A stretch of DNA of 64,000 nt from Pseudomonadota bacterium (GTDB lineage: Bacteria; Pseudomonadota; Alphaproteobacteria; Rhodospirillales; Magnetospirillaceae). Where the stretch lies: contig JAJZVW010000005.1 of the NCBI GenBank assembly GCA_021847015.1, forward strand, positions 1-64,000, in the 5' to 3' direction. The position numbers and the translations under genes were made by a program. The notes beneath the pieces were generated by a model, which worked only from the letters and a program-made list of their open reading frames with translations, was not told the DNA's origin and made no database searches. Position 1 is the stretch's first letter; the number at the start of each line of letters is the position of its first letter. Positions 896 to 43,520 of this stretch are shown here, one piece after another.

Positions 896-1038
896 ATGGG
901 CGGGCGTCATTATGCGCCTTCGCTCACGGTGTCATCCCGACCGAGCGGAGGCGAGCGGAAGGGATCTTTCGGGCGACGGTGCGTGAAAGCTCGCCCGGCT
1001 CCCGGGACGGTAACGAAAGCCATAATGAGACCCGTTGG
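896..1038. repeat. Degenerate 145-bp palindromic element (copy A)
   Basis: Carries the family hallmarks: an inner TGTCATCCCGACC...GGGATCTTTC arm and outer CATTATG/CATAATGAGA ends. The right half of the palindrome is eroded and no flanking duplication is clear. It fills the gap between uvrB and the left-edge gene. Confidence 0.6.
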
Positions 1039-28147: not shown

Positions 28148-28164
28148 GGGGTCGGCTCGCGGTT

Positions 28165-28306
28165 CAGCAATTCTCATCTGACGTCGTGTTGTCATCCCGG
28201 GCCGCAGGTGAGGGATCCTTCAGGCATTTTCGCGTGAAAGATCCCGCGGTCGCTCCGCTCCCTCGGGATGACATGACCGGCGAGGGCGCATAATGAAAAG
28301 TGCTGC
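28165..28306. mobile_element. About 142-bp palindromic element (copy B)
   Basis: Ends CAGCAATTCTCAT / ATGAAAAGTGCTG form imperfect inverted repeats. The core is TCATCCCGGGCC...GAGGGATCC / GATCCCGC...CTCGGGATGACA. The flanks TCGCGGTT and CCGCGGCT match at 6 of 8 positions, a possible decayed target duplication. It sits between the nadK start and the end of the GT2 gene. Confidence 0.6.
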
Positions 28307-29382: not shown

Positions 29383-29438
29383 CACTTCGCTGGCGGCGGG
29401 GACACAGGGGTTTCCACCGCGATCGTTGGGTTGGCACG

Positions 29439-29584
29439 GGCGACGGTTCCCGTTACGGATTCTTCGCTGTCATCCCGAGCCGCAGGCGAGGGATCTTTCA
29501 GGCGTAGTCGGGTGAAAGATCCCTCCACTCGCTTTCGCTCGGTCGGGATGACATCAAGAGCGAGGCTCATAATGAAAACCGCCA
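29439..29584. mobile_element. 146-bp palindromic element with perfect 8-bp flanking duplication (copy C)
   Basis: Flanked on both sides by TTGGCACG (29431-29438 and 29585-29592). Ends GGCGACGGTTCCCGTTACG and CATAATGAAAACCGCCA form imperfect inverted repeats. The core arms are GTCATCCCGAGCC...GAGGGATC and GATCCCTCC...GGTCGGGATGAC. No coding capacity. The duplication is strong evidence of a transposition-type insertion. Confidence 0.8.
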
Positions 29585-29635
29585 TTGGCACGAGCGGGAC
29601 ATTAACACCACTTCATCACCAAGATAAGGCCGGGA

Positions 29636-30622
29636 TCAGCCGCCGGTGACGCTCATATGGCGGGCCACGGCCGGCCGGCGCCCGCGGTCGATGATGAAAT
29701 CGTGCCCCTTGGGCTTGGCGCCGATGGCGGCGTCGATGGCGGCGTCCAGCAGATGATCGCTTGCGCTGGACCGCAAGGGCGCCCGCAGGTCCACCGCGCT
29801 GTCCTGGCCGAGGCAGGGATACAGCGTCCCGGTGCAGGTGACCCGGACGCGATTGCACGATTCGCAGAAGTTGTGGGTCATCGGCGTGATGAAGCCGATG
29901 CGCCGCCCGGTTTCGGCGATGGCGGCGTAACGCGCCGGTCCGCCGGTGGTCCAGTCGCTGTCGGTGAGCGTCCAGCGCCGCCCCAGGCGGGAGCGTACCA
30001 GCGACAGGGGCAGATACTGCTCGGTGCGGTCGGCGTGAACCTCGCCCATGGGCATGGTCTCGATCAGGCAGAGATCGAAGCCGTGGTTGCCGCACCAGGC
30101 GACGAGGTCGTCGTATTCATCCTCGTTCACGCCCTTCAGCGCCACGGTGTTGATCTTGACCGCCAGTCCGGCGGCCTTCGCCGCCATGATCCCGTCGATC
30201 ACCCTGTCCAGTTTCCCCCACCGGGTGACGCGGGCGAAGCGGGCGGGATCGAGGGTGTCCAGCGAGACGTTCACCCGCCGGATGCCGGCCGCCGCCAGGC
30301 CCTCGGCGTGCTCGGCCAGCAGGGTGCCGTTGGTGGTGAGCGTAAGCTCGTGCAACTCGCCCGCCGCGACCAGCCGGCCCAGCCGGGCGATCAGGCCCAT
30401 GACGTTGCGCCGCACCAGGGGTTCGCCGCCGGTGAGGCGGATCTTGCGCACGCCCTTGCGGACGAAGGCGGCGCACAGCCGCTCCAATTCCTCCAGCGTC
30501 AGGATGTCGGCCTTGGGCAGGAAGGTCATGTCCTCCGCCATGCAATAGACGCAGCGGAGGTCGCAGCGGTCGGTGACCGAAACCCGCACATAGGTGACCT
30601 TGCGGCCGAAGGAATCGATCAT
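29636..30622 (-). CDS. moaA: GTP 3',8-cyclase MoaA (molybdenum cofactor biosynthesis)
   Basis: Radical SAM enzyme for the first step of molybdopterin synthesis, GTP to 3',8-cyclo-GTP (with MoaC giving cPMP). N-terminal cluster cysteines C20, C24, C27 (CDLRCVYC) bind the SAM iron-sulfur cluster. The C-terminal cluster cysteines are in [19 protein letters not shown]. The chain ends in the required Gly-Gly. GGAGACAG lies before ATG 30622. Divergent from a DUF2478/DUF364 fusion that is also linked to metal cofactors. Confidence 0.96.
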
Positions 30623-30764
30623 TCTGTCTCCGGCGGGCCCGCGAACGGGGGCGCTCTATCCGGATATATATCGCGGCGCGCGCCAAGGCGAGAGGGCTTT
30701 CAGGCAAATTCCCTCCGCACGGCGCGCTTGTGGCGGGCATGCCCGGCCATTACTCTCCCGCCCC

Positions 30765-32003
30765 ATGACCTCCCATCTGCCGGGGATTTCCCCCATGGCC
30801 CTGCCTGCCGCCGTCCACCCGCCCGCCATCGGCGCCGTGGTCTATCCGCCGGAGCGGCGGCCGGAGCGGTTGCTGGCCGGCTTCGCAGCGGCCCTGTCCT
30901 CGCGCGGGTTCCGCCTGGGCGGGGTGTTGCAGGAAACCAGCGCGGGCGACATGGTCCTGACCGATCTGGATGGCGGCGCCCGGCTGTCCATCCGCCAGAA
31001 CCTGGGGTCGGGATCGTCGGCCTGCGCGCTCGACGCCTCGGCCCTGGCCGAGGCGTCCGGGGCCTTGCGCCGCGCCTTGGCGGCCGGGGTGGATCTGCTG
31101 TTCGTCAACAAGTTCTCGGCGCAGGAGCAGTCCGGCGGCGGGTTCGCCGACGAGATGCTGGCGGCCATGGCCGGCGGCGTGCCGCTGCTGACGGCGGTGC
31201 CGGCCGCGCTGGTGGAGCATTGGCGCGATTTCACCGGCGGGCGCGGCGACCTGCTGATGCCCGACGAAGCCGCCCTGTGGCGGTGGTGGGGTCCCCGCCG
31301 CCTGTATCAGGACTTGGCGCTCGGCGTGCCGGACGTTCCGGTCGAGCGGGTGGTCGTCGGGTTGGGCTTCACCCTGGTGGAGGGGCCGGACGGCATCGGG
31401 CTGGCGCGCACGCCGGAGACCGCCGCCGGCTGTTCGGCCGCGCCCGACGCGGGGCGGCAAAGAGGCCGTTCGCTGCGGGAGCTTGCCGGCCTGGTCCATT
31501 CGTGGAATCCCTTCGAGCTGGCGCTGGGCGTGGCGGCCTGCAACGCCCACTACAACCGGTTCGACCTAGCGGCGGAGGAGACCAACGGCCTCGATGTCCT
31601 CGCCAGGGAGGACAGCCCCGTGGTCATCGGCGGCTTCCCCGGCATCGCCCGACGCCTTCCCGGCGCCAGGGTGATCGAGCGGCGGCCCGCCCCCGGCGAA
31701 TATCCCGAGGAGGCGGCCGAATGGCTGCTGCCCGCCGCCGAGGCGGTGGTCGTTACGTCATCGGCGCTGGCCAACCGCAGCCTTCCGCGGTTGCTGGCCC
31801 TGGCGCGGGATGCGCGCATCGTCCTGGTGGGGCCCGGCGCACCGTTGACCCCGCGCCTGTTCGATTACGGAATCGCGGCACTGTCCGGGGTGGTGGCGCT
31901 GGACGGCGACGGGCTGGCCCGTGCCGTCGCCGAAGGCGGCGGTGCCCGGGACATCCGGCACTATTGCCGGCCGGCGACCCTGCGCCGGTCCGGGTGGGAG
32001 TGA
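30765..32003 (+). CDS. DUF2478 / DUF364 (putative metal-cofactor) fusion protein
   Basis: A 412-residue two-domain protein. Residues about 20-180 match DUF2478, a P-loop-like NTPase domain often encoded with molybdenum transporters (IGAVVYPPERRPERLLAGF, LLFVNKFSAQEQSGGGF). Residues about 255-412 match DUF364/DUF4213, a putative heavy-metal-chelation fold (LAGLVHSWNPFELALGVAACNAHYN, VVIGGFPGIARRLPGARVIERRP, VVTSSALANRSLPRLLAL). It diverges from moaA, which fits a role in molybdenum or other metal handling. A second in-frame ATG at 30795 is equally possible as start. Confidence 0.75.
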   Translation: MTSHLPGISPMALPAAVHPPAIGAVVYPPERRPERLLAGFAAALSSRGFRLGGVLQETSAGDMVLTDLDGGARLSIRQNLGSGSSACALDASALAEASGALRRALAAGVDLLFVNKFSAQEQSGGGFADEMLAAMAGGVPLLTAVPAALVEHWRDFTGGRGDLLMPDEAALWRWWGPRRLYQDLALGVPDVPVERVVVGLGFTLVEGPDGIGLARTPETAAGCSAAPDAGRQRGRSLRELAGLVHSWNPFELALGVAACNAHYNRFDLAAEETNGLDVLAREDSPVVIGGFPGIARRLPGARVIERRPAPGEYPEEAAEWLLPAAEAVVVTSSALANRSLPRLLALARDARIVLVGPGAPLTPRLFDYGIAALSGVVALDGDGLARAVAEGGGARDIRHYCRPATLRRSGWE

Positions 32004-32014
32004 AAGGGGCGGAG

Positions 32015-32791
32015 ATGGCGGCGTCTATGGGGGAAAACCCGAAATTGTCGGCCCTGGTGGTCGTCCACAACGAGGAGGAGCGGCTGCCGGCCTGCCTGGA
32101 TCGCCTCGGCTTCGCCGACGAGATCGTGGTGGTGCTCGACAAATGCACCGACGGCAGCCGCGACATCGCGCTCCGCTACGGTGCCCGGATCGTGGAGGGA
32201 CGCTGGGATATCGAGGGCGACCGGCGCAACACCGGCATTCGCGCCTGTTCGGGCGATTGGGTCCTGGAGGTGGATGCCGACGAGCGCGTGCCGGCGGCCC
32301 TGGCCGAGGAAATCCGCCGCGTCATCGCCACCACCCGGTACGACTGGCACGAGATCCTGGTGGACAATTACATCGGCGAGCGCCGGGTTCGCCACGGCTG
32401 GGGGGCATCCTACGGCAAGGCCGCCTATCCCGGGCTGTTCCGCCGCGAGGCCAAGACCTGGGGCCGCGACCGCGTCCATCCCAGCCTGACCTGGCGGGGG
32501 CGCAAAGGTCCCATGCTGGTCAACCGGCTGGACCATTACGTCGATCGCGACATCTCGGACATGATCCGCCGCCTCGACGCCTATTCCACGGCCAAGGCGC
32601 GCGATTTGCGCGACCGCGGGGAGACCTGGGGAAGTTTCGCCAGCAATCTGCGCCGCGTGGTGTCGCGCTTCTTCAAATGCTATGTGCGGCGCAAAGGGTA
32701 CAGGGAGGGCGGCTACGGCTTCGTCATCGCCGTCTGCGCCGCCCTCTACCCGATGCTGTCGCACCTCAAGGCCAAGTACGAAAAGGACTGA
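32015..32791 (+). CDS. GT2 family glycosyltransferase, WaaE/KdtX-like
   Basis: A 258-residue GT-A enzyme resembling LPS core beta-1,4-glucosyltransferases (WaaE/KdtX). Visible motifs: LVVVHNEEERLPACLDRL, VLDKCTDGSRDIALRYGA, WVLEVDADERVP (DxD). A C-terminal helical region (ALYPMLSHLKAKYEKD) could touch the membrane. It lies 11 bp after the DUF fusion and 6 bp before a GT4 gene, so they are likely co-transcribed. Confidence 0.88.
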   Translation: MAASMGENPKLSALVVVHNEEERLPACLDRLGFADEIVVVLDKCTDGSRDIALRYGARIVEGRWDIEGDRRNTGIRACSGDWVLEVDADERVPAALAEEIRRVIATTRYDWHEILVDNYIGERRVRHGWGASYGKAAYPGLFRREAKTWGRDRVHPSLTWRGRKGPMLVNRLDHYVDRDISDMIRRLDAYSTAKARDLRDRGETWGSFASNLRRVVSRFFKCYVRRKGYREGGYGFVIAVCAALYPMLSHLKAKYEKD

Positions 32792-32797
32792 TCCCGC

Positions 32798-33832
32798 ATG
32801 GCGCGCGTCATCATGACCGACGACGGCATCGCCTTCGACGGGCGCATGGCGGAGGAGCGGCCGCTGGGCGGCGCCGAGACGGCGTTCGTCGCGCTGGCCA
32901 ACGCGCTGGCGGCGCGCGGTCACGACGTGCTGGCCTGCAACCGCTGTGACGATCCCCTCGACCACAGGGGCGTGCGCTGGCGCCCCATCGGCCAGGGCGT
33001 GCCCGATTCCGCCGATCTTTACATCGCCAATCGCGGCGACAAGCTGTTGCGGCTGGTGCCCAAGGCCGGGCGCACCATCTTCTGGATCCACAATCCCGCC
33101 GGCTATCTGCTCAAATGGCGCTACCAGTGGAAACTGGCGTGGCGCCGGCCGACCGTCGTGTTTTCGGGCGCCAGCCACGCATCGACCTATCCCGGCTGGG
33201 GCTTCGCCGGGGGGCGGGCGATCGTCCCCTTGGGCGTCACGGACATTTTCCGCCACGGCGAGGAACGGCCTCCGCCGGCTCCGCGGGCGATCTTCACGTC
33301 GAATCCCCTGCGCTCGCTGGATTGGCTGCTGGAGGTGTGGGCCGAGCGCATCCGTCCCGCCGTGCCGGTGGCCGAACTGCACGTCTTCGCAGGCGATGCC
33401 ACCTATGGGTCCACGGGTCGGGCCAAGGCCTCGCGGATGGGCCCGGTGCTGGAACGGGCGGCGCGGCTGGCCGGGCAGGGGGTGGTGCTGCGCGGACCGG
33501 TGCCCAAAGACCAGTTGGTGCGCGAGCTGGCCGAGGCGCGGGTTCTGCTCTATCGCGGCGACGCCGGCGAAACGTTCTGTCTTGCGGCCGCCGAGGCCCA
33601 GGCCATGGGTGTGCCCGGCGTGGTCGAAGACATCGCCTGCATGGGCGAGCGCATTCAGGACGGCCGAACCGGGTTCGTGGTGCGGGGATCGGAGGCCTTC
33701 GCCGATGCGGGTGTCCGCCTGCTGGCCGACGACACGCTGTGGCGGGATTTCCATCGCCGCTGCCTGGCGGAGCAGCGCTCCTGGGGGTGGGACGAGGCGG
33801 CCGCCGCGTTCGAACGCATCGGCGGTCTCTGA
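32798..33832 (+). CDS. Glycosyltransferase family 4-like protein
   Basis: A 344-residue GT-B protein. The N-terminal glycine loop reads PLGGAETAFVALANAL. The C-terminal part has FTSNPLRSLDWLLEVW and the acceptor/donor helix GETFCLAAAEAQAMGVPGVVED. Follows the WaaE-like gene by 6 bp and ends 10 bp before the convergent nuclease gene. Likely LPS core or O-chain sugar transfer. Confidence 0.86.
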   Translation: MARVIMTDDGIAFDGRMAEERPLGGAETAFVALANALAARGHDVLACNRCDDPLDHRGVRWRPIGQGVPDSADLYIANRGDKLLRLVPKAGRTIFWIHNPAGYLLKWRYQWKLAWRRPTVVFSGASHASTYPGWGFAGGRAIVPLGVTDIFRHGEERPPPAPRAIFTSNPLRSLDWLLEVWAERIRPAVPVAELHVFAGDATYGSTGRAKASRMGPVLERAARLAGQGVVLRGPVPKDQLVRELAEARVLLYRGDAGETFCLAAAEAQAMGVPGVVEDIACMGERIQDGRTGFVVRGSEAFADAGVRLLADDTLWRDFHRRCLAEQRSWGWDEAAAAFERIGGL

Positions 33833-33842
33833 TTCCCGCCGG

Positions 33843-34358
33843 TCATTCCGGCGGGGCCTCCTCCGTGGGGCACCACGGCATTTTATGTCCCCCCTGATAG
33901 GGGTGCGCCAGGCCGGCGGCCAGCAGGGCTTGGGACAGGTCCTCTCCGCTCGCCGTCATCACGCTCGCCACCACTCGCCGCCCGTACTTGTCGTAAGTGA
34001 TGTCGCGCAGAACGATGTGGTCTTCGGTCAGCTTGTCTTCGACGAAGACGCGGGCCTGCTCGGCCAGTCGCCGTTCCGCGTCGCAGCGGGCGTGCATTTC
34101 CGCCGTATCGACCCCGCGCAGCCGCACGTTGGTTACGACCTCCTGCCCCAGCCAAATGTGGGCGCGCACGCGGATGGTGTCCCCGTCGATGATCCGCAGC
34201 ACGATGGCCGGCACCGGCCCGGGCACCGGGCCTTCGCCGAACACGTCGCCGGAAAGGTCGCTCTCGGCCGAGGCCGCGACGGCCATCACGGCGACAAGGC
34301 CCGCCCGAAGAACTGCCGTGCTGAACGCCAGTGTTATCGTCTTTAGATTGTATTTCAA
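33843..34358 (-). CDS. Secreted thermonuclease-like (SNase) protein
   Basis: A roughly 171-residue staphylococcal-nuclease-fold protein. Catalytic pattern: IIDGDTIRVRAHIW (Asp), NVRLRGVDTAEM (Arg, Asp, Glu), YDKYGRRVVASV. An N-terminal hydrophobic signal sequence ends in VAASAES. No ATG lies near the signal sequence; TTG 34358 is the simplest start, and ATGs further upstream would make an unlikely 60 to 100-residue leader. Predicted exported calcium-dependent nuclease. Confidence 0.8.
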   Translation of the reverse strand: MKYNLKTITLAFSTAVLRAGLVAVMAVAASAESDLSGDVFGEGPVPGPVPAIVLRIIDGDTIRVRAHIWLGQEVVTNVRLRGVDTAEMHARCDAERRLAEQARVFVEDKLTEDHIVLRDITYDKYGRRVVASVMTASGEDLSQALLAAGLAHPYQGGHKMPWCPTEEAPPE

Positions 34359-34555
34359 CTTGTCACGCGCCGTTGGCCGAGCGAATAGCGCAATGCCATC
34401 CACGAAATGTAGGTGGTTTTGCGAACATGTCAAGAACATAGGTCCGTTGGGGGATGACCAAGGTGTGGCCGGCGGGAGGGACGAGGCCTGCGCCGTTGGC
34501 AGGCGGGGGCGCCCGCGATATGGTGCGCCGTCCCCCCTATCCCAAGGCAGGAACG

Positions 34556-35812
34556 ATGACGTCCAAGCCCGCCCATGCCGTTGACGCCTCCCGCATCGTC
34601 GCCGCCGCGTCCTTCCTCGCACCGGTTGTCGCGGTCCTCGCTCCCCTGGGTCTCGCACCGCTGGCGGCGGTGCTGGGCGCCTGGGCGCTGTGGTCGGCTT
34701 ACCGCGGCGGACGGGTGGGGAAGCTGCGGTGGAGCCTGATCATCCTTCCCGGCGCGGTGCTTGGCTGGGGGGCGGTGAGCGCCCTGTGGGCGCCCGACCC
34801 GAAATTGGCGCTGACGACCTGCGGCCGCATCTTCAGCCTGGCGGTGCTGGGGGTGGCGCTGATGAATGCGGCCGACCACGTTCCCTTCGGCCGCCGCCGG
34901 GGCGTGATCGCCGCCCTTCTGGCGGGGTTGGCCGTGGCGGCGATCCTGCTGGCGGCGGAATATCTCTCGGGCCACGGCGTGTCCGCGCTCATTGCCGCCG
35001 CCAAGGGCGCGCCGGTGACCGTGAAATCGCCGTTCAACCGTGGGGCGCCGGTGGTGGCGCTGTTCCTGTGGCCGGCGGCCGTCCTCGCGCGGGAGCGGCT
35101 GGGGCGGGGCGGGGCGGTTGCGGTGGTCTGCCTGCTGGCGGCGGCGGTGATGGTCAGCGACAACCTGTCGTCGAAGCTGGCGCTGGTGACGGGAGGGGCG
35201 ATGTTCGCGCTCGTGCTGGCCTGGCCCGGCGGCGGATTGCGGATCTTCCGGGTCGGGTTCGTGGCGCTGGCGGTCGCGATGCCGTCCCTGGCCCTGCATC
35301 TTCCGCAACCGCCCGAATCGTTTCACAGCCTGCCGTGGCTGCCCTATTCCGCCCAGCACCGCCTGGCCATTTGGCATTTCGCGGCCAAGTCGGTGGAGAC
35401 CCATCCGGTCCGCGGCTGGGGAATGGAAGCGTCACGGGCCTTGCCGGGGGGGCAGGAGCATATCAACCTGGAGTGGAGAGATGCGGATGGCCATCTGAAG
35501 ACCATTCTCAACGGCCAATACCTGCCGCTGCATCCCCACGACGCGATGCTGCAATGGTGGGTCGAACTGGGCTTGCCGGGAGCCGCCGGTCTGGCCGCCT
35601 TCGTCTGGCTGGTGGCACGGCGCGTGGAGCGTGCGCCGATGGCGGCCCCGGCCCGCGCCGCGGCCGCGGCCGCGCTGGCGTCGGCGACGGTTGTCGGCCT
35701 GATCAGCTTCGGCTTCTGGCAGGCATGGTGGCAGTCGGCGCTCTGGCTTGCCGCCATGTTGGGGGTGCTGGCCGCGGGGATCGGAGAGGAGCGGCGCGGC
35801 AAGGAAATGTGA
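34556..35812 (+). CDS. O-antigen ligase family (WaaL/Wzy_C) membrane protein
   Basis: A 418-residue protein with about ten transmembrane segments and a periplasmic loop near the C-terminus (NGQYLPLHPHDAMLQWWVELGLPG) carrying the conserved His-Asp of Wzy_C ligases and polymerases. It joins or polymerises undecaprenol-linked glycans at the periplasmic face. The start at MTSKPAHAV follows a GGCAGGA box. A second ligase-like protein is encoded at 41968, so one may be the polymerase Wzy and the other the ligase WaaL. Confidence 0.85.
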   Translation: MTSKPAHAVDASRIVAAASFLAPVVAVLAPLGLAPLAAVLGAWALWSAYRGGRVGKLRWSLIILPGAVLGWGAVSALWAPDPKLALTTCGRIFSLAVLGVALMNAADHVPFGRRRGVIAALLAGLAVAAILLAAEYLSGHGVSALIAAAKGAPVTVKSPFNRGAPVVALFLWPAAVLARERLGRGGAVAVVCLLAAAVMVSDNLSSKLALVTGGAMFALVLAWPGGGLRIFRVGFVALAVAMPSLALHLPQPPESFHSLPWLPYSAQHRLAIWHFAAKSVETHPVRGWGMEASRALPGGQEHINLEWRDADGHLKTILNGQYLPLHPHDAMLQWWVELGLPGAAGLAAFVWLVARRVERAPMAAPARAAAAAALASATVVGLISFGFWQAWWQSALWLAAMLGVLAAGIGEERRGKEM

Positions 35813-35818
35813 TGCCTC

Positions 35819-35844
35819 GGGGGGGACGGGCATTCCGTCCCCCC
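35819..35844. terminator. Hairpin between convergent genes
   Basis: GGGGGGACGG (35820-35829) pairs with CCGTCCCCCC (35835-35844) around a 5-nt loop, between the ends of the ligase and DUF4142 genes. Could serve both strands; there is no clear U-run. Confidence 0.55.
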
Positions 35845-35856
35845 TTGGGGGAGCGC

Positions 35857-36396
35857 TTATTCCCGCCCCCCGGATTCCGGCATGGCCGCGCCCTGCGGTG
35901 CGATGGATTGCGCCATGGAAAGATGTTCCTTCAGGGTCGGCAGAGTGTCCTGCGCGTAGCGCTTGACCGCGGAATTCTGGCCTTCGTCGATTTCCTTCTG
36001 ATAGGTTTTGACGTACTTCTGGTGTTCCTGAACCATCATCGGCATATAGGCGTTGTCGAACGCCTCGCCTTGCAGGCTCGAAAGCCTGTCGACCTCGCGC
36101 TGCTGGTCCGCGCTGATCTGTTTCGGCGGCGCCATGCCGTCGCGTTCCGCGATACCCGTAATTTCCTTATTGAATTTGCCGTGATCCTCCACCATGCGCT
36201 GGCCGAACTTGCGGACCTCGGGGTTGGCGCCATGCTGCTCGGCCATCGTGCCGAGATCCACTTGCAGCATGTTGTCGGTGACGGCCTCGGGGATGAATTC
36301 CCGGTCCTGGGAACTCATCTTGCCGGCCTGCTGCGCGAAGGCGGGCGCGGATGCCAGGACGATGGACAATGCCAGGACGGAAAAGGAGGGGCGCAT
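35857..36396 (-). CDS. DUF4142 periplasmic protein
   Basis: A 179-residue exported helical protein. Signal peptide (MRPSFSVLALSIVLASAPAF) with AFAQ cleavage site. The mature part has DUF4142 features (KMSSQDREFIPEAV, FGQRMVEDHGKFNKEI, HQKYVKTYQKEIDEG), a ferritin-like helical bundle of unknown activity. GGAG before ATG 36396 supports this start. Single gene. Confidence 0.9.
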   Translation of the reverse strand: MRPSFSVLALSIVLASAPAFAQQAGKMSSQDREFIPEAVTDNMLQVDLGTMAEQHGANPEVRKFGQRMVEDHGKFNKEITGIAERDGMAPPKQISADQQREVDRLSSLQGEAFDNAYMPMMVQEHQKYVKTYQKEIDEGQNSAVKRYAQDTLPTLKEHLSMAQSIAPQGAAMPESGGRE

Positions 36397-36606
36397 GACA
36401 ACGGTCTCCTCGAAAAGGGTCGCTCGCGCTGAAATCCGATCGCGGGTGCCGGCTTTCAAGGACGAAGAGGTGGGCTCCGCTGGAGGGGCATGTGTCAGGG
36501 GCGGACGAAGCCGGCCCACCGCGCCGGTCGGCGGCGGATTTACCCCTTCGGTCTTGTGCTGGGGGACGATGCTCGGCTAACAATACCCCGCATCCTTTGA
36601 GGACCC

Positions 36607-38541
36607 ATGATGCGGCTCGGATTTTCGGTTCATCGCGGTCACATCGCGTTCACGCATGACCTGATCATGGCCGCGGCGTCCTTCCTCGCGGCGCTGTATC
36701 TGCGGACGGCCAGCGACTGGATTCCCGATTGGGACCTGTCGACGCTGGCCTTGGGCACCGCCACCTTCACGATCATTTCCGCCACCGTGTTCCTGTCGGG
36801 GGGGATGTACAAGGGCGTCTGGCGCTATGCCTCGGTGACCGATCTGCTGGCGCTGGCCAAAGCCGCCACCGCCACCGTCCTGATCTTCTACCTGGCGATA
36901 TTCCTGATAACGCGCCTGGCGGATATTCCCCGCTCGGTCCCCATCATCAATTGGTTCGTGCTGCTGGCCCTGCTGGGGGGGCCGCGTTTCCTGTACCGCG
37001 TGGTCAAGGACCGCCGCCGGGCGGCGCGACTGGCCGCCGACGGCAACGCGCGGGTGCCGGTGCTGCTGGTGGGGGCCGGGGACGAGGCGGATCTGTTCAT
37101 CCGCGCGATCCGTTCCCCCGATGCCGAATATCGGGTCGTCGGCCTGCTGTCGGAAACCGGAATCCGGGTGGGGCGGAACATTCACGGCGTCGACGTGCTG
37201 GGCTCCATCGGGGATCTGGACGATATCGTCGGGCAGCTTCGCCGGAAGGGGCTTTCGCCCCAGCGTCTGATCATCACCGATCACCGCATGGATGGCGCCG
37301 CCGTGCGGCGCCTGCTGGACGAGGCCGACCGGCTGGGCATGGCGCTGGCCCGCATTCCCCGCCTGACCGATCTCAAGGACGGCGTCGCCGACAAGGTGAC
37401 CATCCGTCCGATCGCGGTGGAAGACCTTCTCGGCCGCCCGCAGATGGTGCTCGACCGCGAGGCCATGGCGGAAATGATCCGCGGACGCCGCGTGTTGATC
37501 ACCGGGGCGGGAGGCTCGATCGGCTCGGAGCTGGTGCGTCAGGTGTGCGAATACGGCCCGGCGTCGGTCGTGCTGTTCGAATCGTGCGAATTCAATCTGT
37601 ACAGCATCGACCTGGAGATCGCCCGCGCCTATCCCGACCTGGCGCGCAGGCCGGTGCTGGGGGATGTGCGGGATGCCGGGCGGGTGGGGGGCGCCATGGC
37701 CGAGCACCGTCCCGAACTGGTGTTCCACGCCGCCGCGCTCAAGCACGTGCCGATGGTCGAGTACAATCCCGACGAGGGATTGCTGACCAACGCCGTGGGA
37801 ACGCGGATCGTCGCCGATGCCTGCCGCAGCAACGGCGTCCGGGTGATGGTGCAGATTTCCACCGACAAGGCGGTCAATCCCACCAATGTCATGGGGGCGT
37901 CGAAGCGGGTGGCCGAGATGTATGCCCAGGCGCTGGACATCGAAGGAGCCGGCGACGGCGGTACCCGCTTCGTCACCGTCCGGTTCGGCAACGTGCTGGG
38001 TTCGACCGGGTCGGTCGTTCCCCTGTTCCAGAAGCAGCTGGCGGCCGGCGGTCCCCTCACCGTCACCCATCCCGACATGACCCGCTATTTCATGACCGTG
38101 CGCGAAGCGGTCGAACTGGTGTTGCAGGCTTCGGCGCTGGGGCTGGACAACCCGGTCTACCGGGGCAAGATTTTCGTCCTCGACATGGGCGAACCGGTAC
38201 GGATCGTCCACCTCGCCCATCAGATGATCCGGCTCGCCGGGCTGCGCCCCGGGCGCGACATCGCCATCACCTACACCGGCCTGCGTCCCGGCGAGAAGCT
38301 GTTCGAGGAGATCCTTCACGGCGCCGAGCCGCCCTTGCCCACCGAATGCAAGGGCATCCTGGTGGCGGCGCCGCGCTCGGTCGATGCCGAGGAACTGGGG
38401 GTGGCGTTGTCCGATCTGGAGACGGGCTGCCGCGCCCATCGGGCCGAAGCGGCGCTCGCCATCCTCCGCCGGCTGGTGCCCGAATATCGCCCGGCCGTGG
38501 GGGCGGCCGTGCCGACGGGTGAGACCGCAGCGGTCGAATAA
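36607..38541 (+). CDS. Nucleoside-diphosphate-sugar 4,6-dehydratase, CapD/WbpM/FlaA1-like
   Basis: A 644-residue inner-membrane enzyme. The N-terminus has four transmembrane helices (about residues 12-115), then a CoA-binding-like domain, then a cytoplasmic SDR domain with TGAGGSIGSELVRQVCEYGP (about 297-316). The catalytic stretch STDKAVNPTNVMGASKR has Met in place of Tyr in YxxxK, as in WbpM/FlaA1 C6-dehydratases. Likely converts UDP-GlcNAc to a 4-keto-6-deoxy sugar for O-antigen. Start ATG 36607 or the next codon. Single gene. Confidence 0.93.
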   Translation: MMRLGFSVHRGHIAFTHDLIMAAASFLAALYLRTASDWIPDWDLSTLALGTATFTIISATVFLSGGMYKGVWRYASVTDLLALAKAATATVLIFYLAIFLITRLADIPRSVPIINWFVLLALLGGPRFLYRVVKDRRRAARLAADGNARVPVLLVGAGDEADLFIRAIRSPDAEYRVVGLLSETGIRVGRNIHGVDVLGSIGDLDDIVGQLRRKGLSPQRLIITDHRMDGAAVRRLLDEADRLGMALARIPRLTDLKDGVADKVTIRPIAVEDLLGRPQMVLDREAMAEMIRGRRVLITGAGGSIGSELVRQVCEYGPASVVLFESCEFNLYSIDLEIARAYPDLARRPVLGDVRDAGRVGGAMAEHRPELVFHAAALKHVPMVEYNPDEGLLTNAVGTRIVADACRSNGVRVMVQISTDKAVNPTNVMGASKRVAEMYAQALDIEGAGDGGTRFVTVRFGNVLGSTGSVVPLFQKQLAAGGPLTVTHPDMTRYFMTVREAVELVLQASALGLDNPVYRGKIFVLDMGEPVRIVHLAHQMIRLAGLRPGRDIAITYTGLRPGEKLFEEILHGAEPPLPTECKGILVAAPRSVDAEELGVALSDLETGCRAHRAEAALAILRRLVPEYRPAVGAAVPTGETAAVE

Positions 38542-38667
38542 GCCGGCTGGCCACCGCCCCATACTCCTGACAGTGGATATGCTTCCAGTGGCGCGCAAGC
38601 GTGTGGGGAGGTAAGATGGCTGCGGACTCCCCTGCTCCTTCGCAGGGACTAACAAGGGAGGACGGCC

Positions 38668-39135
38668 ATGATGCGCACCCTTGCTATTCCAGCACTCATT
38701 CTTGCCGGTATTCTTTCTTCCTCCTCGTCCGCTCTCGCGCAAGGCGCCGGCGGGCCGCCGGCGACGGCTCCGGGCATGACCCAGCCGGGGGGACCGGGGG
38801 CGATGGCCCCCCGCGGCTTCATCCCCGACCCGTCCACGCTGCCGGCTCTGAAGAAGAAGCTGGCCATCCGGCCCGAACAGGAACTCCAGTGGAAATCCTA
38901 TGTCAAGGCCGTGGAAAAGGCTTGGAGGCACCGGGAGACGGCGCCGCGCACGCAGGCGATGACCCCGCAGGAACGCCAGCAGGCGCGGGAGGGCCGCAGA
39001 GGGGAGCGCGTCGAAATCCATGCGGATTTGCAGCACGCGCGCGAGAGCCTGGACAAGGTGCTGATGCCGGAGCAGCGGACGGAGTTCGACCGCGAGGTGC
39101 CGCCGCTGCCCAATTCCGGCGGTCCGCCGCGCTGA
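38668..39135 (+). CDS. Small periplasmic Spy/CpxP-like (LTXXQ-type) protein
   Basis: A 155-residue exported protein. Signal peptide ends SSSALAQ. The mature part is Gly/Pro-rich, then alpha-helical and charged (LPALKKKLAIRPEQELQWKSYV, ...MPEQRTEFDREVPPLPN), like the Spy/CpxP family of periplasmic stress chaperones. GGAGGACGGCC precedes the ATG. Role inferred from fold pattern only. Confidence 0.75.
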   Translation: MMRTLAIPALILAGILSSSSSALAQGAGGPPATAPGMTQPGGPGAMAPRGFIPDPSTLPALKKKLAIRPEQELQWKSYVKAVEKAWRHRETAPRTQAMTPQERQQAREGRRGERVEIHADLQHARESLDKVLMPEQRTEFDREVPPLPNSGGPPR

Positions 39136-39148
39136 CTTCGGGTGTTTT

Positions 39149-39232
39149 CGCCCCTCGCCGGGTGCAGGCTCCGCCTGCTTGGGTGCCGCCTCAATGGCGG
39201 CTGAGCATGATCGGATCAATCCGATCATGCCT
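39149..39232. repeat. 85-bp three-hairpin intergenic repeat (copy 2)
   Basis: About 80 percent identical to 9082-9168 and in the same orientation and position, abutting the 3' end of a minus-strand gene. The last hairpin pairs GCATGATCGGAT (39205-39216) with ATCCGATCATGC (39219-39230). Confidence 0.7.
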
Positions 39233-40473
39233 CAGGCGGTCATGATCGCCTCGTAGAGGACGCGGGTCTGCTGCTGGATCACCGCGTCGCAGAAGTCGCG
39301 TTCGACGGAGCGGCGGGCGTCTTCGCCCATGCGGCGGCGGAGCGCACCGTCGGCCGCCAGGCGCGCGATGGCGTCGGCGAGCGCGGCGGCGTCCCGTGGC
39401 GGGACGAGGAATCCCGTCTTGCTCGGAACGACGATCTCGCGGCAGCCGGGGACGTCGGTGGCGATCATCGGGCGGCCGCAGGAGGCCGCCTCCAGCAGGC
39501 TTTTGGGCAGCCCTTCGCCGCGGTAGGAGGGCAGCAGCGCGATGTGGCCGCCGCGCCAGACGTCCGCGATATCCGAGCGGTGTCCCCACCATTCCAGCAG
39601 GTTTTCCCTCTCCCAGGCGCGGATGTCCGCTTCGGTCAGCGATCCCGGGCTGCGGGAATCGGGCTTGCCGACGAGAACGATGCGGACGGGCGCCCCTTGG
39701 GCGCGCAACAGCCGCGCCGCTTCGGCGACCTCCGCCACGCCCTTGTCGCGCAGGAAGCGGCCGACGAAGATCGCGGTCACGGTGCCTCCGGGCTCGGGCA
39801 TGCTGGGGAAACGGACGATATCCACGCCCGACCCGCGGATCAGGTGGCTGCGGTCGGGCGGCACCAGCTTCAGCCGATCGAACAGGTCGCGGTCGTCCGC
39901 GTTCTGGAACACCACATGGCTGCCCGGGCGGGACAGAAGAAGGCGCAGGACCGGCCGCAGGACCATGCGCAACAGCCGCGCCCGCGGCCGGTCGGAGGCG
40001 AAGGCGAAGCCCAGGCCGGTCAGGGTCGCCACGCTGCGGCGGGTGCCGGCGGCAAGGGCGGCGGCGGCACCGAACACGGCCGGCACCAGGGCGATGTGGT
40101 GGACGAGATCGGGCGCCTCGCGCCGGTAGAGGCGGATCAGGCGGATCAGGCGCGCCGCCTGCCGCAGCGGGCCGCCCGGCCGCCGCAGGGACGGGACATG
40201 GACCGGCCGGAATCCCTCCGCGCGAATGGCGTCGGCGTGCCGGTCGAGATTGGTCGCCACCACCACCTCCCAGCCGAGGTCGCGGGCCAGGCGCGCGGTG
40301 GGCAGCCGATGCGACGTGAAATACCAGTCCTCGGTGACGAGATAGAGCACCCGCGGACGGCGCGGCACGGACGTCCCGTGCTCATCCGACGCGCAAGCGA
40401 AGGGCCTCTCGGGCGCCTGCTCGGGGGAACATCCGACGCGGGGCTCCAGACAAGAACCGGTGGATGTGGGCAC
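39232..40473 (-). CDS. Glycosyltransferase family 4 protein (PglA/WbnH-like)
   Basis: A 413-residue GT-B enzyme. The N-terminal domain has LYLVTEDWYFTSHRLPTARL and LVHHIALVPAVFGAA. The GT4 domain has VGRFLRDKGVAEVAEAARLL, HIALLPSYRGEGLPKSLLEAASCGRP and VPGCREIVV. A GTG start at 40473 is preceded by GGGAGGAG and is better placed than any ATG. The ATG-initiated frame would extend into the repeat elements upstream. Likely transfers HexNAc or hexose during O-antigen assembly. Confidence 0.88.
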   Translation of the reverse strand: MPTSTGSCLEPRVGCSPEQAPERPFACASDEHGTSVPRRPRVLYLVTEDWYFTSHRLPTARLARDLGWEVVVATNLDRHADAIRAEGFRPVHVPSLRRPGGPLRQAARLIRLIRLYRREAPDLVHHIALVPAVFGAAAALAAGTRRSVATLTGLGFAFASDRPRARLLRMVLRPVLRLLLSRPGSHVVFQNADDRDLFDRLKLVPPDRSHLIRGSGVDIVRFPSMPEPGGTVTAIFVGRFLRDKGVAEVAEAARLLRAQGAPVRIVLVGKPDSRSPGSLTEADIRAWERENLLEWWGHRSDIADVWRGGHIALLPSYRGEGLPKSLLEAASCGRPMIATDVPGCREIVVPSKTGFLVPPRDAAALADAIARLAADGALRRRMGEDARRSVERDFCDAVIQQQTRVLYEAIMTA

Positions 40474-40591
40474 GGCGGTCTCCTCCCAAACGTCGCGGCC
40501 GCGGACCGAAGTTATAGGCACGCAGCCAGGCCTTTTGGTCAAGGGCCGTTCCTTCCTCCCGTTCCCGGCCGGGAACGGGAGCGGGCCTGTA

Positions 40592-40790
40592 TCCAGGGCT
40601 CCGAACTCAGATTTCGAATGGGTTAATGGTATCGTCACCTCCCTGTCATCCCGACGGAGCGACAGCGACGAGGGATCCTTCAGCCGCCGGCGGCTGCCGT
40701 TCGTGCCTGAACGATCCCTCTCTCCGCTCGGGATGACACCAGCGCTCAATGGGACATTAAGGATTTGGTTATCCGAGTTCGGAGCCCTGC
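40592..40790. mobile_element. About 197-bp MITE-like element with GGGCTCCGAACTC ends (copy 1)
   Basis: AGGGCTCCGAACTCAGAT (40595-40612) and ATCCGAGTTCGGAGCCCT (40771-40788) are inverted repeats matching at 17 of 18 positions. Inside lies a GTCATCCCGACGGAGCGACAGCGACG...CGCTCGGGATGACA palindromic core. A second full copy is at 63693-63894. No coding capacity; no clear flanking duplication at this copy. Confidence 0.8.
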
Positions 40791-40810
40791 CGGCCCGGCC
40801 GGTCATATTG

Positions 40811-40955
40811 CAGCGGTTCTCATTATGCGGCATCAGGGCATGTTGTCATCCCGAGGGAGCGGAGCGACTGAGGGATCTTTCACGCGAAAGTGCCGGAAAG
40901 ATCCCTCGCCGTCGGCTCGGGATGACAGCGAAAAATGCATAATGAGAACCGCCGG
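40811..40955. mobile_element. 145-bp palindromic MITE-like element (copy E)
   Basis: Ends CAGCGGTTCTCATTATGC and GCATAATGAGAACCGCCGG are inverted repeats. Flanked by TCATATTG (40803-40810) and TTATATTG (40956-40963), a 7 of 8 match. The core is GTCATCCCGAGGGAGCGGAG...GAGGGATC / GATCCCTCG...GCTCGGGATGAC. Together with copy 1 of the 197-bp element it fills the divergent promoter region between a GT4 and a flippase-like gene. Confidence 0.8.
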
Positions 40956-41032
40956 TTATATTGTCTTCTCGTCTTCGATCCTATAAGAGTAGCCCGGCGC
41001 AGGGGTAGGGCCCGGAATCCGCCGCAGTGACG

Positions 41033-41971
41033 ATGTCTTTGAAATTCCTTTTCAGACTCCTGATCAGTGTCGGAGTCCTGGCCGCCATCCTGGTGCGCGC
41101 CGACATGGGCGCGCTCGGGTCCTATCTCGGCAAGGTTTCCGGTTCCTATGTGCCGGGAATCCTGGGTTTGGGCATCGGCCAGGTGCTGCTGACGTCCATG
41201 CGCTGGCATCTGATGCTCCGCGCGGTGGGCGTCCGGCTTCCCCGCCGTGTGACGCTGGAAGCGAACGTGTTGAGCATTCTGGGCAATTCGCTCCTGGTCA
41301 ATGTGGTCGGCGGCATGATGGTGCGGGTCGGCATGCTGCGCGTCCACGGCGTTCCGTCCGGCAAGGTTGTGTCGACGAGCCTCCTTGAGCGCCTCCAGGT
41401 CGCCGCGGTTCTGCTGGTCATGACCATCGGCGGCGTTTTCTGGTTCCACGCGGACCTCAGGCTGGCGGTGTCCTCGGACGATTTCCGGCGCATCGCCGCG
41501 CTGGCGCTGGTCGCCGTGCCGTTGGCCGCCCTGGTCTTCTACGGCACCAACGAGGTCATCCGGCAGCAATTCCGCCGCGTGGCGGATTACCTGCGCAACG
41601 TCGTCCACGATCTGCGGGCGATGGTGCTGGATTATCGCAGTCTGGCGGGGGCGCTGGGCTACACCGTGGCCAGCCAGCTCTGCATCATCGGCATGGCCGT
41701 GCTGATCGGCCGCGCCATCGGCCTGCCCATGTCCCCGGTGGATCTGGCGATGGTGCTGCCGCTGGTGGCGCTGCTGTCCAGCCTGCCGGTCAGCCTGTCG
41801 GGCTTCGGCGTGCGGGAATTCAGCCTGGTGCTCATCCTGCCGATGTTCGGGGTGCCCGGCGAGGCGGCTTTGGCCTTGGGGCTGCTGATCGGCCTGTTCG
41901 CGCTGTCGAGCGCGCTGCTGTCGCAGCTTGCCGTGTCCCTGCTGCGCTCGGCGCGCGACGGTGCCGGATGA
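41033..41971 (+). CDS. Lysylphosphatidylglycerol-synthase-TM/AglD-like (UPF0104) membrane protein
   Basis: A 312-residue polytopic protein with about eight transmembrane helices. The family signature is visible in QVLLTSMRWHLMLRAVGV...ILGNSLLVNVVGGMMVRV and LPVSLSGFGVREFSLVL. These proteins are related to the flippase part of MprF and to AglD and are common in glycan loci. A GTG 6 bp upstream is also possible as start. Overlaps the next gene by ATGA. Confidence 0.85.
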   Translation: MSLKFLFRLLISVGVLAAILVRADMGALGSYLGKVSGSYVPGILGLGIGQVLLTSMRWHLMLRAVGVRLPRRVTLEANVLSILGNSLLVNVVGGMMVRVGMLRVHGVPSGKVVSTSLLERLQVAAVLLVMTIGGVFWFHADLRLAVSSDDFRRIAALALVAVPLAALVFYGTNEVIRQQFRRVADYLRNVVHDLRAMVLDYRSLAGALGYTVASQLCIIGMAVLIGRAIGLPMSPVDLAMVLPLVALLSSLPVSLSGFGVREFSLVLILPMFGVPGEAALALGLLIGLFALSSALLSQLAVSLLRSARDGAG

Positions 41972-43461
41972 CGAGGGAGCGGACGGAGGCCCGATCCGGG
42001 CGTTCCGCGATCGCCGTCACCCTTCTCGCCGTCGCGCTGGCATTCGGCCATCAGACCCAGTACCTGCTGCCGGTGACGAAGACGGGGCTCACCATCACTT
42101 TGGCCGATCCGCTGGTGGCGGCGCTGGTGGCCGGCATCGCCGTGGCGGAGTGGCGGGGAAAGGGGGGTCTGCCGCGCTGGCGGCTGGCGCTGTGGCCGTG
42201 GCTGGGCCTGCTGGCCGGAACGTTGGCGCTCGGCATGGCGGTGGCCTGGTGGCGCACCGGGCATGTCACGTCCTGGGCGCTGGGCAGCCGGTTCGCCGGC
42301 TTCTTCCTGCTGGCCGGCTATCTGGTGGCGGGCGGTTGGCTGGCCGCATGGCGCCCGAGGGGAGACACGCCCGCGTTCGCCGTGATGCTGGTGGCGGCGA
42401 CGGCGGCCATCGCCGGCTGGGCCCTGTTGGGAACGACGTTCGGCTGGGTCTCCCAGTACCGCCTGATGGGGCTGACCGGCAATCCCAACGCCTTCGCCTT
42501 CGAAATCGTGTGCGCGATGTCCCTGCTTGCCGGCCTTGCCGCCAAACCTTCCGCCACGGTCATCCGCTGGGGCGCTCCGGCGATGGGCGTGCTCATGCTG
42601 GGCCTGTGGTATTCGCTGTCCAGGGCGGGCCTGCTGGCGGCGGGCGTGGTCCTGGCGGGCGCGGTCATCCGCCTGGGGCCCGCGGCGCGGCGGGTGGTGG
42701 TCATGGGCGCCGCGCTGGCGGCCGGTATCGTCATCGCCGCGAATATCGCCCACCACCAGCCGCGGGTCGGGCGCGGGGATGGAGAGATGAGCCTGTCGGC
42801 CTCCGAAGCCGTTCTGGCGCATCCGGACGGGCAGGAGGCCGGATATTCCAACCGCGAGCGGATGCTGTCGGTCGAGGAGGCCTTCGCGACCTGGCGCGAG
42901 CATCCCCTGCTGGGCGCGGGCTTGGGCACCTTCGTCGAAAGCCACGCCGGTCTCTTGGGGCAGCCGCTGGTGATCCACAACAGCGCCCTTTGGGTGCTGG
43001 CGGAAATGGGCGTGGTGGGGTTCGCCGCCTTTTCGGGCTTCGCGGTGGCCTGCGTCCGGGTGTTGGCGCGGCGGGGCGGGCAGAACGATGCGTTGCGTGT
43101 GGCGGGATTGCTGACCCTGGCCGGTTTCGCGGTGATGGCGACATTCCACGATCTGGCCTTTCAGCGTCCTTTGTGGCTGATCCTGGGCATGGCGCTGGCG
43201 GAGGTGCCGGCGACCGCGAAGCCGCAATCAGGTTTGGGACGTTCCGGTCCTGGAGAGTTTCCATGCCGCGACCGACCGGGACGGTTGAGCTGGTGGGGGA
43301 TAGGGCGCATTGCCGGCAACATCAACTGTACGGGCCCAACGGTTCTCATTATGCGCTCTCGCTACCGTTGTCATCCCGACCGAGCGACGCGAGCGGAGGG
43401 ATCATTCACGCGAAAACGCCTGAAAGATCCTTCGGCTACGCTCGGGATGACAGCGAAATAA
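41968..43461 (+). CDS. O-antigen ligase/polymerase-like membrane protein with repeat-derived C-terminus
   Basis: A 497-codon frame. Residues 1-415 encode a polytopic membrane protein with about ten helices and a ligase-type periplasmic loop (TWREHPLLGAGLGTFVESHAGLL...IHNSALWVLAEMG). From codon 457 to the stop the reading frame lies inside the 145-bp repeat at 43336-43480, giving a basic tail RCHPDRATRAEGSFTRKRL and more. The original C-terminus was probably nearer residue 420-455. Coupled to the upstream flippase-like gene by an ATGA overlap. Confidence 0.82.
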   Translation: MTRERTEARSGRSAIAVTLLAVALAFGHQTQYLLPVTKTGLTITLADPLVAALVAGIAVAEWRGKGGLPRWRLALWPWLGLLAGTLALGMAVAWWRTGHVTSWALGSRFAGFFLLAGYLVAGGWLAAWRPRGDTPAFAVMLVAATAAIAGWALLGTTFGWVSQYRLMGLTGNPNAFAFEIVCAMSLLAGLAAKPSATVIRWGAPAMGVLMLGLWYSLSRAGLLAAGVVLAGAVIRLGPAARRVVVMGAALAAGIVIAANIAHHQPRVGRGDGEMSLSASEAVLAHPDGQEAGYSNRERMLSVEEAFATWREHPLLGAGLGTFVESHAGLLGQPLVIHNSALWVLAEMGVVGFAAFSGFAVACVRVLARRGGQNDALRVAGLLTLAGFAVMATFHDLAFQRPLWLILGMALAEVPATAKPQSGLGRSGPGEFPCRDRPGRLSWWGIGRIAGNINCTGPTVLIMRSRYRCHPDRATRAEGSFTRKRLKDPSATLGMTAK

Positions 43462-43480
43462 ACCATAATGAGAACCGCTG
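43336..43480. mobile_element. 145-bp palindromic MITE-like element with perfect 8-bp duplication (copy F)
   Basis: Flanked by GTACGGGC on both sides (43328-43335 and 43481-43488). Ends CCAACGGTTCTCATTATG and CATAATGAGAACCGCTG are inverted repeats. The core is GTCATCCCGACCGAGCGACG...GGAGGGATC / GATCCTTCG...CTCGGGATGAC. It overlaps the 3' end of the ligase-like gene. Confidence 0.85.
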
Positions 43481-43520
43481 GTACGGGCTCCATTACTTTG
43501 ACGCGGGGAAATCGTAACGT

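Follow-up and report, generated by a model that had tools for sequence, protein, structure and literature searches.

It is very likely that the short repeats denoted here MITE1, several of which lie in the window (the whole 64-kb stretch of DNA that was analyzed), constitute a family of bacterial MITEs that is probably moved in trans by a Tn5-fold DDE transposase of an insertion sequence (IS) group found in related bacteria. MITE1 displays the features by which MITEs are recognized, i.e., a short, non-coding unit of nearly constant size, inverted ends and a target duplication of fixed length. The observations behind this assignment are the ends, duplications and copy number of the family, two nested insertions, and ISs of relatives with nearly identical right ends and a matching duplication length. 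The MITE1 ends are common to autonomous ISs, but in other genomes only. This links an orphan repeat family to one specific group of transposases, together with the ends of that group. We found no published report of these elements in the literature, including the available text of PMC10969869, PMC8147514, PMC3733652, PMC5896051 and PMC6382973, and among the matches listed for a query with the letters of the core, no title dealt with bacterial repeats.

The MITE1 Family in the Window and in the Host Genome

The terminal inverted repeats of MITE1 are 17 bp long (CAGCGGTTCTCATTATG) and, with up to 2 mismatches, have 218 matches in the host genome vs. 2 for the reversed pattern. Within the window, 11 ends with up to 3 mismatches were detected, whereas 100 shuffles gave 2.92 on average and never as many as 11 (0/100). 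The unit is 144 bp long in the main subfamily and 138–145 bp across the subfamilies, with two longer units of 183 and 186 bp. The main subfamily, whose members were picked on the basis of their length, their match to the ends and an internal motif, includes 33 copies of 144 bp with a mean identity of 98.3%, and 57 of the 528 pairs are identical.

The inverted ends, the palindromic core and the flank matches quoted in the initial annotation of this DNA are all present in the sequence. The elements that it placed at 29439-29584, 40811-40955 and 43336-43480, with lengths of 145–146 bp, are there as well, but with the edges CAGCGGTTCTC...GAGAACCGCTG, which shift the stated ones by 0–2 bp and give a length of 144 bp (Table 1). 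Similarly, the copy given as 28165-28306 indeed has a decayed duplication (7/9) but ends at 28305, and that given as 896-1038 is degenerate, as stated, with a flank match of 5/9, but extends from 898 to 1037. The 8-bp duplication assigned to these elements has to be replaced by one of 9 bp, sometimes 10 bp: perfect 9-bp duplications flank 26 of the 41 MITE1 copies and perfect 10-bp duplications flank 2 of the 41. For the copy at 29441, the best-fitting duplication is 10 bp, not 9.

Table 1. MITE1 and MITE2 elements, their target duplications and a remnant in the 64-kb window.
Feature	Coordinates	Strand	Remarks
MITE1, degenerate copy, 140 bp	898..1037		5/9, no clear duplication
Remnant, MITE1-type end CAGCGGTTCTCATCATG running into palindrome CCCTCGCCC...GGGAGAGGG	10889..10980	+	Right edge approximate
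MITE1, decayed copy, 141 bp	28165..28305		Duplication CTCGCGGTT/CCCGCGGCT, 7/9 (read off the sequence)
MITE1, older copy, 144 bp	29441..29584	not assigned	
Duplication of 29441 copy, 10 bp	29431-29440 + 29585-29594		TTGGCACGGG/TTGGCACGAG, 9/10
MITE2, 196 bp	40594..40789		Ends CAGGGCTCCGAACTCAG/CAGGGCTCCGAACTCGG, REP-like core of the same kind as in MITE1, no clear duplication (best 6)
Left duplication of 40811 copy	40802..40810		GTCATATTG
MITE1, main subfamily, 144 bp	40811..40954	+	Edges CAGCGGTTCTC...GAGAACCGCTG
REP-like palindromic core of 40811 copy	40844..40927	+	TGTCATCCCGA...TCGGGATGACA
Right duplication of 40811 copy	40955..40963		GTTATATTG, 8/9 vs. GTCATATTG
MITE1, different subfamily, 144 bp	43337..43480	+	
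Duplication of 43337 copy	43328-43336 + 43481-43489		GTACGGGCC/GTACGGGCT, 8/9
MITE2	63694..63894		REP-like core, duplication GCCTATTGG, 9/9, right edge moved by 1

A flank match of at least 7/9 was found for 32 of the 41 copies (one of the original 42, its flank truncated at the end of a contig, was left out), compared to 14 of 2000 swapped, i.e., mismatched, flank pairs. Shifting the left edge by 1–3 bases reduces these 32 duplicated copies to 0–3; CAG/CTG tips are present in 32 of the 41 copies. The constant ends together with the duplications support the earlier view of these repeats as transposed, MITE-like units. A duplication of at least 8/9 or 9/10 accompanies 30 of the 33 perfect-ended copies, 9 of the 13 whose ends have 1–2 mismatches and 5 of the 11 with 3–6 mismatches, which leaves three perfect-ended copies without one at this level. 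Flank swaps between copies were considered as the source of missing duplications and were found in none of the six copies tested. Among 42 MITE1 sites, no strong target-site motif emerged, and the duplication edges show nothing beyond a slight G+C bias. The palindrome of the remnant at 10889 resembles that of a MITE from a relative (L073), and a search for a partner end with a duplication found none. A blastn search of a plasmid collection with MITE1 gave no match, and neither did a search for the exact end-pair pattern in a set of genome contigs from which the host genome is possibly absent.

Two nested MITE1 copies (L056 and L059) have related empty sites inside other repeats of the host genome: the joined flanks of the former match uninterrupted MITE copies (at best 85.6% over 125 bp) and those of the latter match MITE2 copies (78–83% over 83 bp). 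Empty sites, which the initial annotation proposed to compare in relatives, were found in this way within the host genome. Of the 50 joined-flank queries, only 6 match across the junction, and 4 of these align with the locus from which they were taken and were left out of account. The relatives sampled were 60 genomes, none of them from the same genus.

In the main subfamily, the sum of the unit and the duplication is divisible by three (144 + 9 = 153 bp = 51 codons), and open frames of at least 200 aa cross 16 elements, as could be expected if these were RPE-like elements in which in-frame protein insertion is favoured. Such an origin seems exceedingly improbable to us because several other MITE1 subfamilies are out of frame and long open frames are common in the G+C-rich DNA of the host. 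Moreover, none of the 10 open frames scanned has a Pfam domain inside MITE1; 7 of them have no Pfam match (E 0.001) and 3 have a domain on one side of the element. In-frame protein insertion is therefore unsupported both by the Pfam scan and by the subfamily lengths.

Candidate Partner Insertion Sequences

Related bacteria harbor 1.43-kb ISs that encode a DDE transposase and have 9–10-bp duplications and right ends nearly identical to those of MITE1 (16/17), so that the autonomous IS with similar ends anticipated in the initial annotation does exist among relatives. The left ends fit the MITE1 end less well (12–15/17; 12/17 in relative G021 and 14/17 in the MAG described below), and both MITE1 ends resemble the IS right end. 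The IS of G021 (L107:1396-2826) is 1431 bp long, encodes a 429-aa protein, has the right end CAGCGGTTCTCACTATG and is flanked on both sides by CTACGGCAT. In one alphaproteobacterial MAG, 20 of 24 loci have the ends CAGCAATTCTCATTTTG and CAGCAGTTCTCATTATG with perfect 9- or 10-bp duplications, and in G036, G028, G050 and G089, fragments of the IS transposase adjoin such ends. Among the 68 loci examined out of 79, under a scoring scheme with a small bonus for CA ends, a CAG-ended pair with a duplication was identified in 32 and was not identified in 36, including four in the same MAG; of the 32 positive loci, L212 has the same sequence as the element of G021, and one duplication sequence occurs at two loci of the MAG.

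Across 17 members of the transposase group, D124, D213, E333 and E335 are invariant, and some of these residues are presumably the catalytic ones. The structure model of the transposase (pLDDT 91.3) has Tn5 transposase as its top matches in the PDB (E 1.8e-10, TM 0.55). The modelled Tn5-fold DDE domain would make the protein similar to the transposases of ISNCY and IS4-like ISs; it differs in that the L107 protein is below the cut-off of every NCBIfam model (27.6 bits vs. 152, and 26 vs. 115), and the ISAs1 model is not among its matches at E 0.1. Over the 17 members, NCBIfam matches are weak and spread across several families (for the 16 other than L107, these are E-values only). A plasmid-encoded relative from Gloeothece verrucosa, with 41% identity, is annotated as 'ISNCY family transposase'. 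The partner IS group might conceivably be the ISDol1 group of ISNCY; the literature text available confirms only the existence of such a subfamily.

A mobilizing transposase, which the initial annotation did not find in the window, was not detected in the host genome either, whether by protein query, PF13808 or PF01609; all evidence of the partner accordingly comes from other genomes. A 17-row transposase profile gave no match there either, an empty result that shows nothing given that this search had no positive control. The partner transposase might have been lost, might have come and gone, or might be missing from the draft assembly. Under the proposed mechanism, a transposase of the IS group with CAGC[AG][AG]TTC... 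ends would bind the MITE1 ends in trans, excise the unit and insert it into a target site opened by staggered cuts 9 nt, sometimes 10 nt, apart, which would yield the 9–10-bp duplications. We infer both the mobilization of MITE1 by this group and the cut-and-paste chemistry.

MITE2 and the ISAs1 Family

A second family, MITE2, contains the same kind of REP-like hairpin as MITE1 between other ends and, at 195–200 bp, is too short to encode a transposase. Nine of the 10 paired copies have a duplication (9/9, 10/10 or 9/10), a count made without a shuffle control and with a tolerance of up to 2 bp in the position of the edges; for the candidates L320 and L322, an end pair was sought and none was found. 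An ISAs1-type IS in G009 (L097; 1270 bp, PF13808 transposase, 10-bp duplication) is identical to the MITE2 end at 17 of 17 positions on the left and at 15 of 17 on the right. Compared with this ISAs1 element, MITE2 has similar ends but is shorter and contains a REP-like core. Given its ISAs1-type ends and duplications within the range of 8–10 bp, MITE2 is classified, from its sequence features, as an ISAs1-derived MITE.

An ISAs1-family transposase, rather than one of the CAGC[AG][AG]TTC-ended group, could then be suspected of moving MITE1 as well, considering that CAG-starting ends and 9–10-bp duplications are common to MITE1, MITE2 and L097, and that the two transposase groups appear, by sequence, to be distantly related (8 of the 17 members of the MITE1-type group match PF13808 at E ≤0.01). 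We regard this as quite unlikely because the other IS group has right ends that agree with those of MITE1 at 16 of 17 positions, while the MITE1 ends differ from CAGGGCTCC..., and because the host genome contains no PF13808 match. The CAGC[AG][AG]TTC-ended group thus remains the preferred partner of MITE1.

The REP-Like Core as Cargo

The REP-like core palindrome is found at 122 places in the host genome. Among the 47 examined, 41 adjoin an element end with up to 3 mismatches (MITE1, 34; MITE2, 7), compared to 0 of 47 for reversed ends. As RNA, the MITE1 copy at 40811 is predicted to fold strongly (-82.9 kcal/mol, z -9.96); no Rfam family was detected at the gathering threshold in 28000-44000. 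The number of cores and this folding would be compatible with REP/BIME hairpins that owe their spread to a RAYT, a tyrosine transposase of the IS200/IS605 type, in which case the outer ends would be incidental. However, RAYT and IS200/IS605 elements are not known to generate target duplications, whereas MITE1 has 9-bp duplications along with constant edges and 17-bp inverted ends, and most of the cores adjoin such ends; we therefore consider this scenario highly improbable. With DDE transposition retained as the preferred reading, the initial statement that the elements are not just REP hairpins proves right, though the REP-like hairpin is their cargo, and MITE2 carries the same kind of hairpin in the window.

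The TGTCATCCCGA palindrome resembles CGTC-type REPs, which, according to the available text of PMC3733652, have no dedicated transposase, occur mostly in Alphaproteobacteria, have a CGTC or TGTC tag and a stem starting with AT, and mostly form head-to-head dimers. In the window, the core tag is TGTC, a frequent variant of CGTC under the definition in that text, and the stem begins with AT (by eye, ATCCC/GGGAT followed by mismatches; published stems are 8–9 bp). In contrast to these REPs, whose tail is mostly CCA, the MITE cores have another tail (in the window copies, the letters after GGGAT are CTTTC, CCTTC or CATTC), and the MITE palindromes lie between transposon ends. The available text on QMITE2 of Coxiella burnetii describes a MITE of ~190 bp with inverted ends and 7–9-bp duplications, the smaller copies of which are 'essentially REP elements' (PMC5896051), a precedent for REPs as MITE parts; QMITE2 comes from another organism, whereas in the present genome two end types hold one kind of core. 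MITEAba12 is likewise a non-autonomous IS-derived element, for which the text available proposes ISAba12 as the autonomous parent, but the parent IS is different and the host belongs to Moraxellaceae (PMC6382973).

CCCTC-type palindromes were detected at 61 places in 7 of the 12 relatives searched, and MITE1-type ends with up to 3 mismatches are present on both sides at 5 of the 51 places examined. With 5 of 51, the idea of the partner IS group as a general source of REP-type palindromes is unsupported. Tentatively, and with a rather low probability in our estimation, CGTC-type REP-like palindromes, which are reported to have no transposase of their own, might spread in the host genome as interchangeable cargo of DDE transposon ends, one kind of hairpin being packaged between the ends of two IS families and relatives packaging another palindrome type between the ends of the first. 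Under this scenario, the hairpin cargo may be actively favoured, through easier MITE formation or better transposition or survival, and some solo REPs elsewhere would be remnants. The spread of REP-like palindromes without their own transposase becomes testable within one genome. On the practical side, these elements are a trap for annotation: draft contigs end at the near-identical 144-bp elements, and long spurious open frames cross them.

Boundaries, target duplications and age of MITE1

Contig 73, of which bases 1-64000 form the window, belongs to a draft genome of 3.59 Mb in 77 contigs. All five elements described in the initial annotation, three main and two decayed, are present, and genome-wide comparison of the copies shows that the true unit of this family, MITE1, is CAGCGGTTCTCATTATG ... 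CATAATGAGAACCGCTG, 144 bp long in the main subfamily. The target duplication, previously taken to be 8 bp, is 9 bp, as follows from the duplication counts and from an edge-shift test. Of the 42 copies compared first, 1 had a cut flank and was left out; in the other 41, a 9-bp duplication is perfect in 26 and a 10-bp duplication in 2. At least 7/9 positions agree in 32, compared to 14/2000 control pairs with flanks drawn from different copies; shifting the left edge by 1-3 bases reduces these 32 copies to 0-3. A broader scan yielded 67 candidate pairs, of which 47 reach at least 7/9 and 34 are perfect; some of the 67 are spurious in that they pair the same copies at a longer or shorter length.

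MITE1 and MITE2 (second miniature family) copies in the window
Family	Position	Target duplication
MITE1	898-1037	5/9
MITE1	28165-28305	7/9, by eye
MITE1	29441-29584	best as 10 bp, 9/10
MITE1	40811-40954	8/9
MITE1	43337-43480	8/9
MITE2	40594-40789	none
MITE2	63694-63894	

Duplications fade as the ends decay, being kept in 30/33 copies with perfect ends, 9/13 with 1-2 end mismatches and 5/11 with 3-6. Two copies (L033 and L052) have perfect ends and no duplication; among six copies of this type tested, none had a swapped flank partner.

The 14-base MITE1 end (up to 2 mismatches) has 218 matches in the genome, compared to 2 for the reversed pattern. Several subfamilies are apparent from the inner sequence at 87 places compared; the 33 copies of the main one, picked by length, end match and inner motif, share a mean identity of 98.3% (minimum 93.1%), with 57 of 528 pairs identical. 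The natural reading is that MITE1 spread in several bursts, the latest of which was recent. At least seven contig ends (L001, L003, L005, L006, L013, L028, L029) lie inside copies, with 110-127 bp of the element left, so that these repeats probably break the assembly.

Given that the 60 relatives drawn included no genome of the same genus, empty sites were sought inside the genome itself. Joined-flank queries matched across the junction in 6 of 50 cases, 4 of which were set aside because they found nothing but their own locus. One copy (L056) is nested in another MITE1 copy, and joining its flanks gives a sequence that aligns to many copies without an interruption (best 85.6% over 125 bp); for a copy nested in a MITE2 core (L059), the sequence joined in this way is 78-83% identical over 83 bp to copies of that family that lack an interruption.

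At three places (L017, L058 and L028), MITE1 and MITE2 are separated by roughly the length of one duplication, as if nearly the same 9-10-bp target had served twice, which may mark an insertion hot spot; L017 has a third end, CAGCAGTTCTCATTACG, with a CCCTC-type core, on the other side. At the starts of contigs C4 and C11, two MITE1 copies whose cores differ slightly (L004 and L021) contain the same foreign sequence at the identical point, after GGCGA in the core, as if from an IS targeting the palindrome.

The likely mobiliser

Searches of relatives with the MITE1 end and with a transposase domain converge on one genome, G021, in which a 1431-bp IS (L107:1396-2826), flanked on both sides by CTACGGCAT, has the ends CAGCAATTCTAAATTTG and CAGCGGTTCTCACTATG and one 429-aa protein. 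Fragments of this transposase adjoin such ends in G036, G028, G050 and G089. A named-genome search found 304 relatives, with 79 loci retained and 68 examined for ends, using a scoring with a small bonus for CA ends. In one uncultured alphaproteobacterium, 20/24 loci contain a 1437-bp IS that is bounded by CAGCAATTCTCATTTTG and CAGCAGTTCTCATTATG and flanked by a perfect duplication (9 bp in 18, 10 bp in 2); two of these loci have one duplication sequence in common. Twelve more loci combine CAG-starting ends with 9-bp duplications (11 perfect, 1 at 8/9), one of them (L212) being identical to the G021 element; convincing ends were not obtained at 36/68 loci, including all seven of a Pseudomonadales chromosome. 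An autonomous IS of the sort that the initial annotation had suggested looking for, with a near-identical right end, exists in relatives.

The alignment of 17 transposases contains 42 invariant columns, including D124, D213, E333 and E335. The top PDB matches of the predicted structure (mean pLDDT 91.3) are to Tn5 transposase (E 1.8e-10, TM 0.55, identity 14%), which leaves 9-bp duplications. A sequence-profile search of PDB gave no match, curated family models matched weakly, and a plasmid relative is annotated as 'ISNCY family transposase'. The best explanation, which we consider very probable, is that MITE1 is moved by the Tn5-fold DDE transposase of this IS group; our confidence is tempered by the poorer fit of the IS left ends and by the half of the examined loci that yielded no ends. 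The mobiliser has likely been identified.

The earlier statement that the transposase is missing from the window agrees with searches of the whole genome, in which none was detected with the G021 protein (a search that matches G021 and seven others), PF13808, PF01609 or the 17-row profile, the last run without a positive control. None of 11 element ends inspected at or near contig ends continues with a transposase; MITE sequence follows at 9 of them, and a MITE that other DNA interrupts at the remaining 2. Among 166 distinct MITE1 ends, 156 reach the REP-like core within 45 bp; the other 10, sorted by eye, lead to core variants (7), a CCCTC-type palindrome (2) or unrelated DNA (1). In this genome, the transposase source has been lost, is missing from the assembly or has diverged beyond recognition.

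REP-like palindromes as cargo

MITE1 belongs to an ordinary kind of element, the MITEs, and we found no published report of this particular family; its REP-like cargo is unusual and common to a second MITE family. The core consists of two REP-like units in inverted arrangement, TGTCATCCCGA...GAGGGATC(T/C)TTC and the mirror image of this, and exact 10-base core arms occur at 122 places. Fifty of these were listed by core pattern alone, regardless of ends; three lie in MITE1 copies, and at the other 47 an end within 75 bp on at least one side, with up to 3 mismatches, was that of MITE1 in 34 and of MITE2 in 7, leaving 5 with only a 4-5-mismatch match and 1 with neither. Backward-read ends gave 0/47 at up to 3 mismatches and 4/47 at 4-5, so the five looser cases mean little.

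Where PMC3733652 deals with CGTC-tagged REPs, these are described as predominating in Alphaproteobacteria, with a tag that is often TGTC and a stem starting with AT; they 'apparently lack a dedicated transposase', and a broad spectrum of transposases is suggested as possible mobilisers. The tag and AT start of the MITE1 core fit that description, whereas the CCA tail does not, and we therefore call the core CGTC-like rather than a member. That REPs can form part of a MITE has a precedent in QMITE2, as outlined in PMC5896051.

MITE2 is 195-200 bp long, with ends CAGGGCTCCGAACTCAG, and its core is ~72% alike to that of MITE1 over 98 bp. Ten copies have paired ends (candidates L320 and L322 gave no pair), and all except the 40594 copy have a duplication of 9/9, 10/10 or 9/10, with edges free to move by up to 2 bp and no shuffle control. 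ISAs1-type loci from relatives gave ends and a duplication in 2/9 cases; one of the two, L097 of G009 (38-1307, 1270 bp), is bounded by CAGGGCTCCGAACTCAGGTT and CAGGGCTCCGAATCCAGGTT and has a 10-bp duplication and a PF13808 match. Two DDE families have thus given rise in this genome to MITEs whose cores are of one kind, so that the way in which these palindromes spread can be put to the test.

Exact MITE1 ends occur in only 9/297 genomes of the order, including this one. Other palindromes lie between MITE1-type ends in G044 (two copies, 211 bp), G009 (216 bp), G036 (217 bp) and G195 (229 bp), all flanked by 9-bp duplications that match at 8 or 9 of 9 (5/28 loci examined). CCCTC-type palindromes of relatives have such ends on both sides at only 5/51 sites (51 of 61 examined). 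Hence the palindromes acquired by these ends also occur alone, and the ends do not account for all of them. G034 has two exact CAGCGGTTCTCATTATG ends (L064 and L072) with an interior unlike MITE1, and a remnant at 10889-10980 of the window, in which a MITE1-type end is combined with a CCCTC-type palindrome, resembles the 216-bp MITE of G009 (L073).
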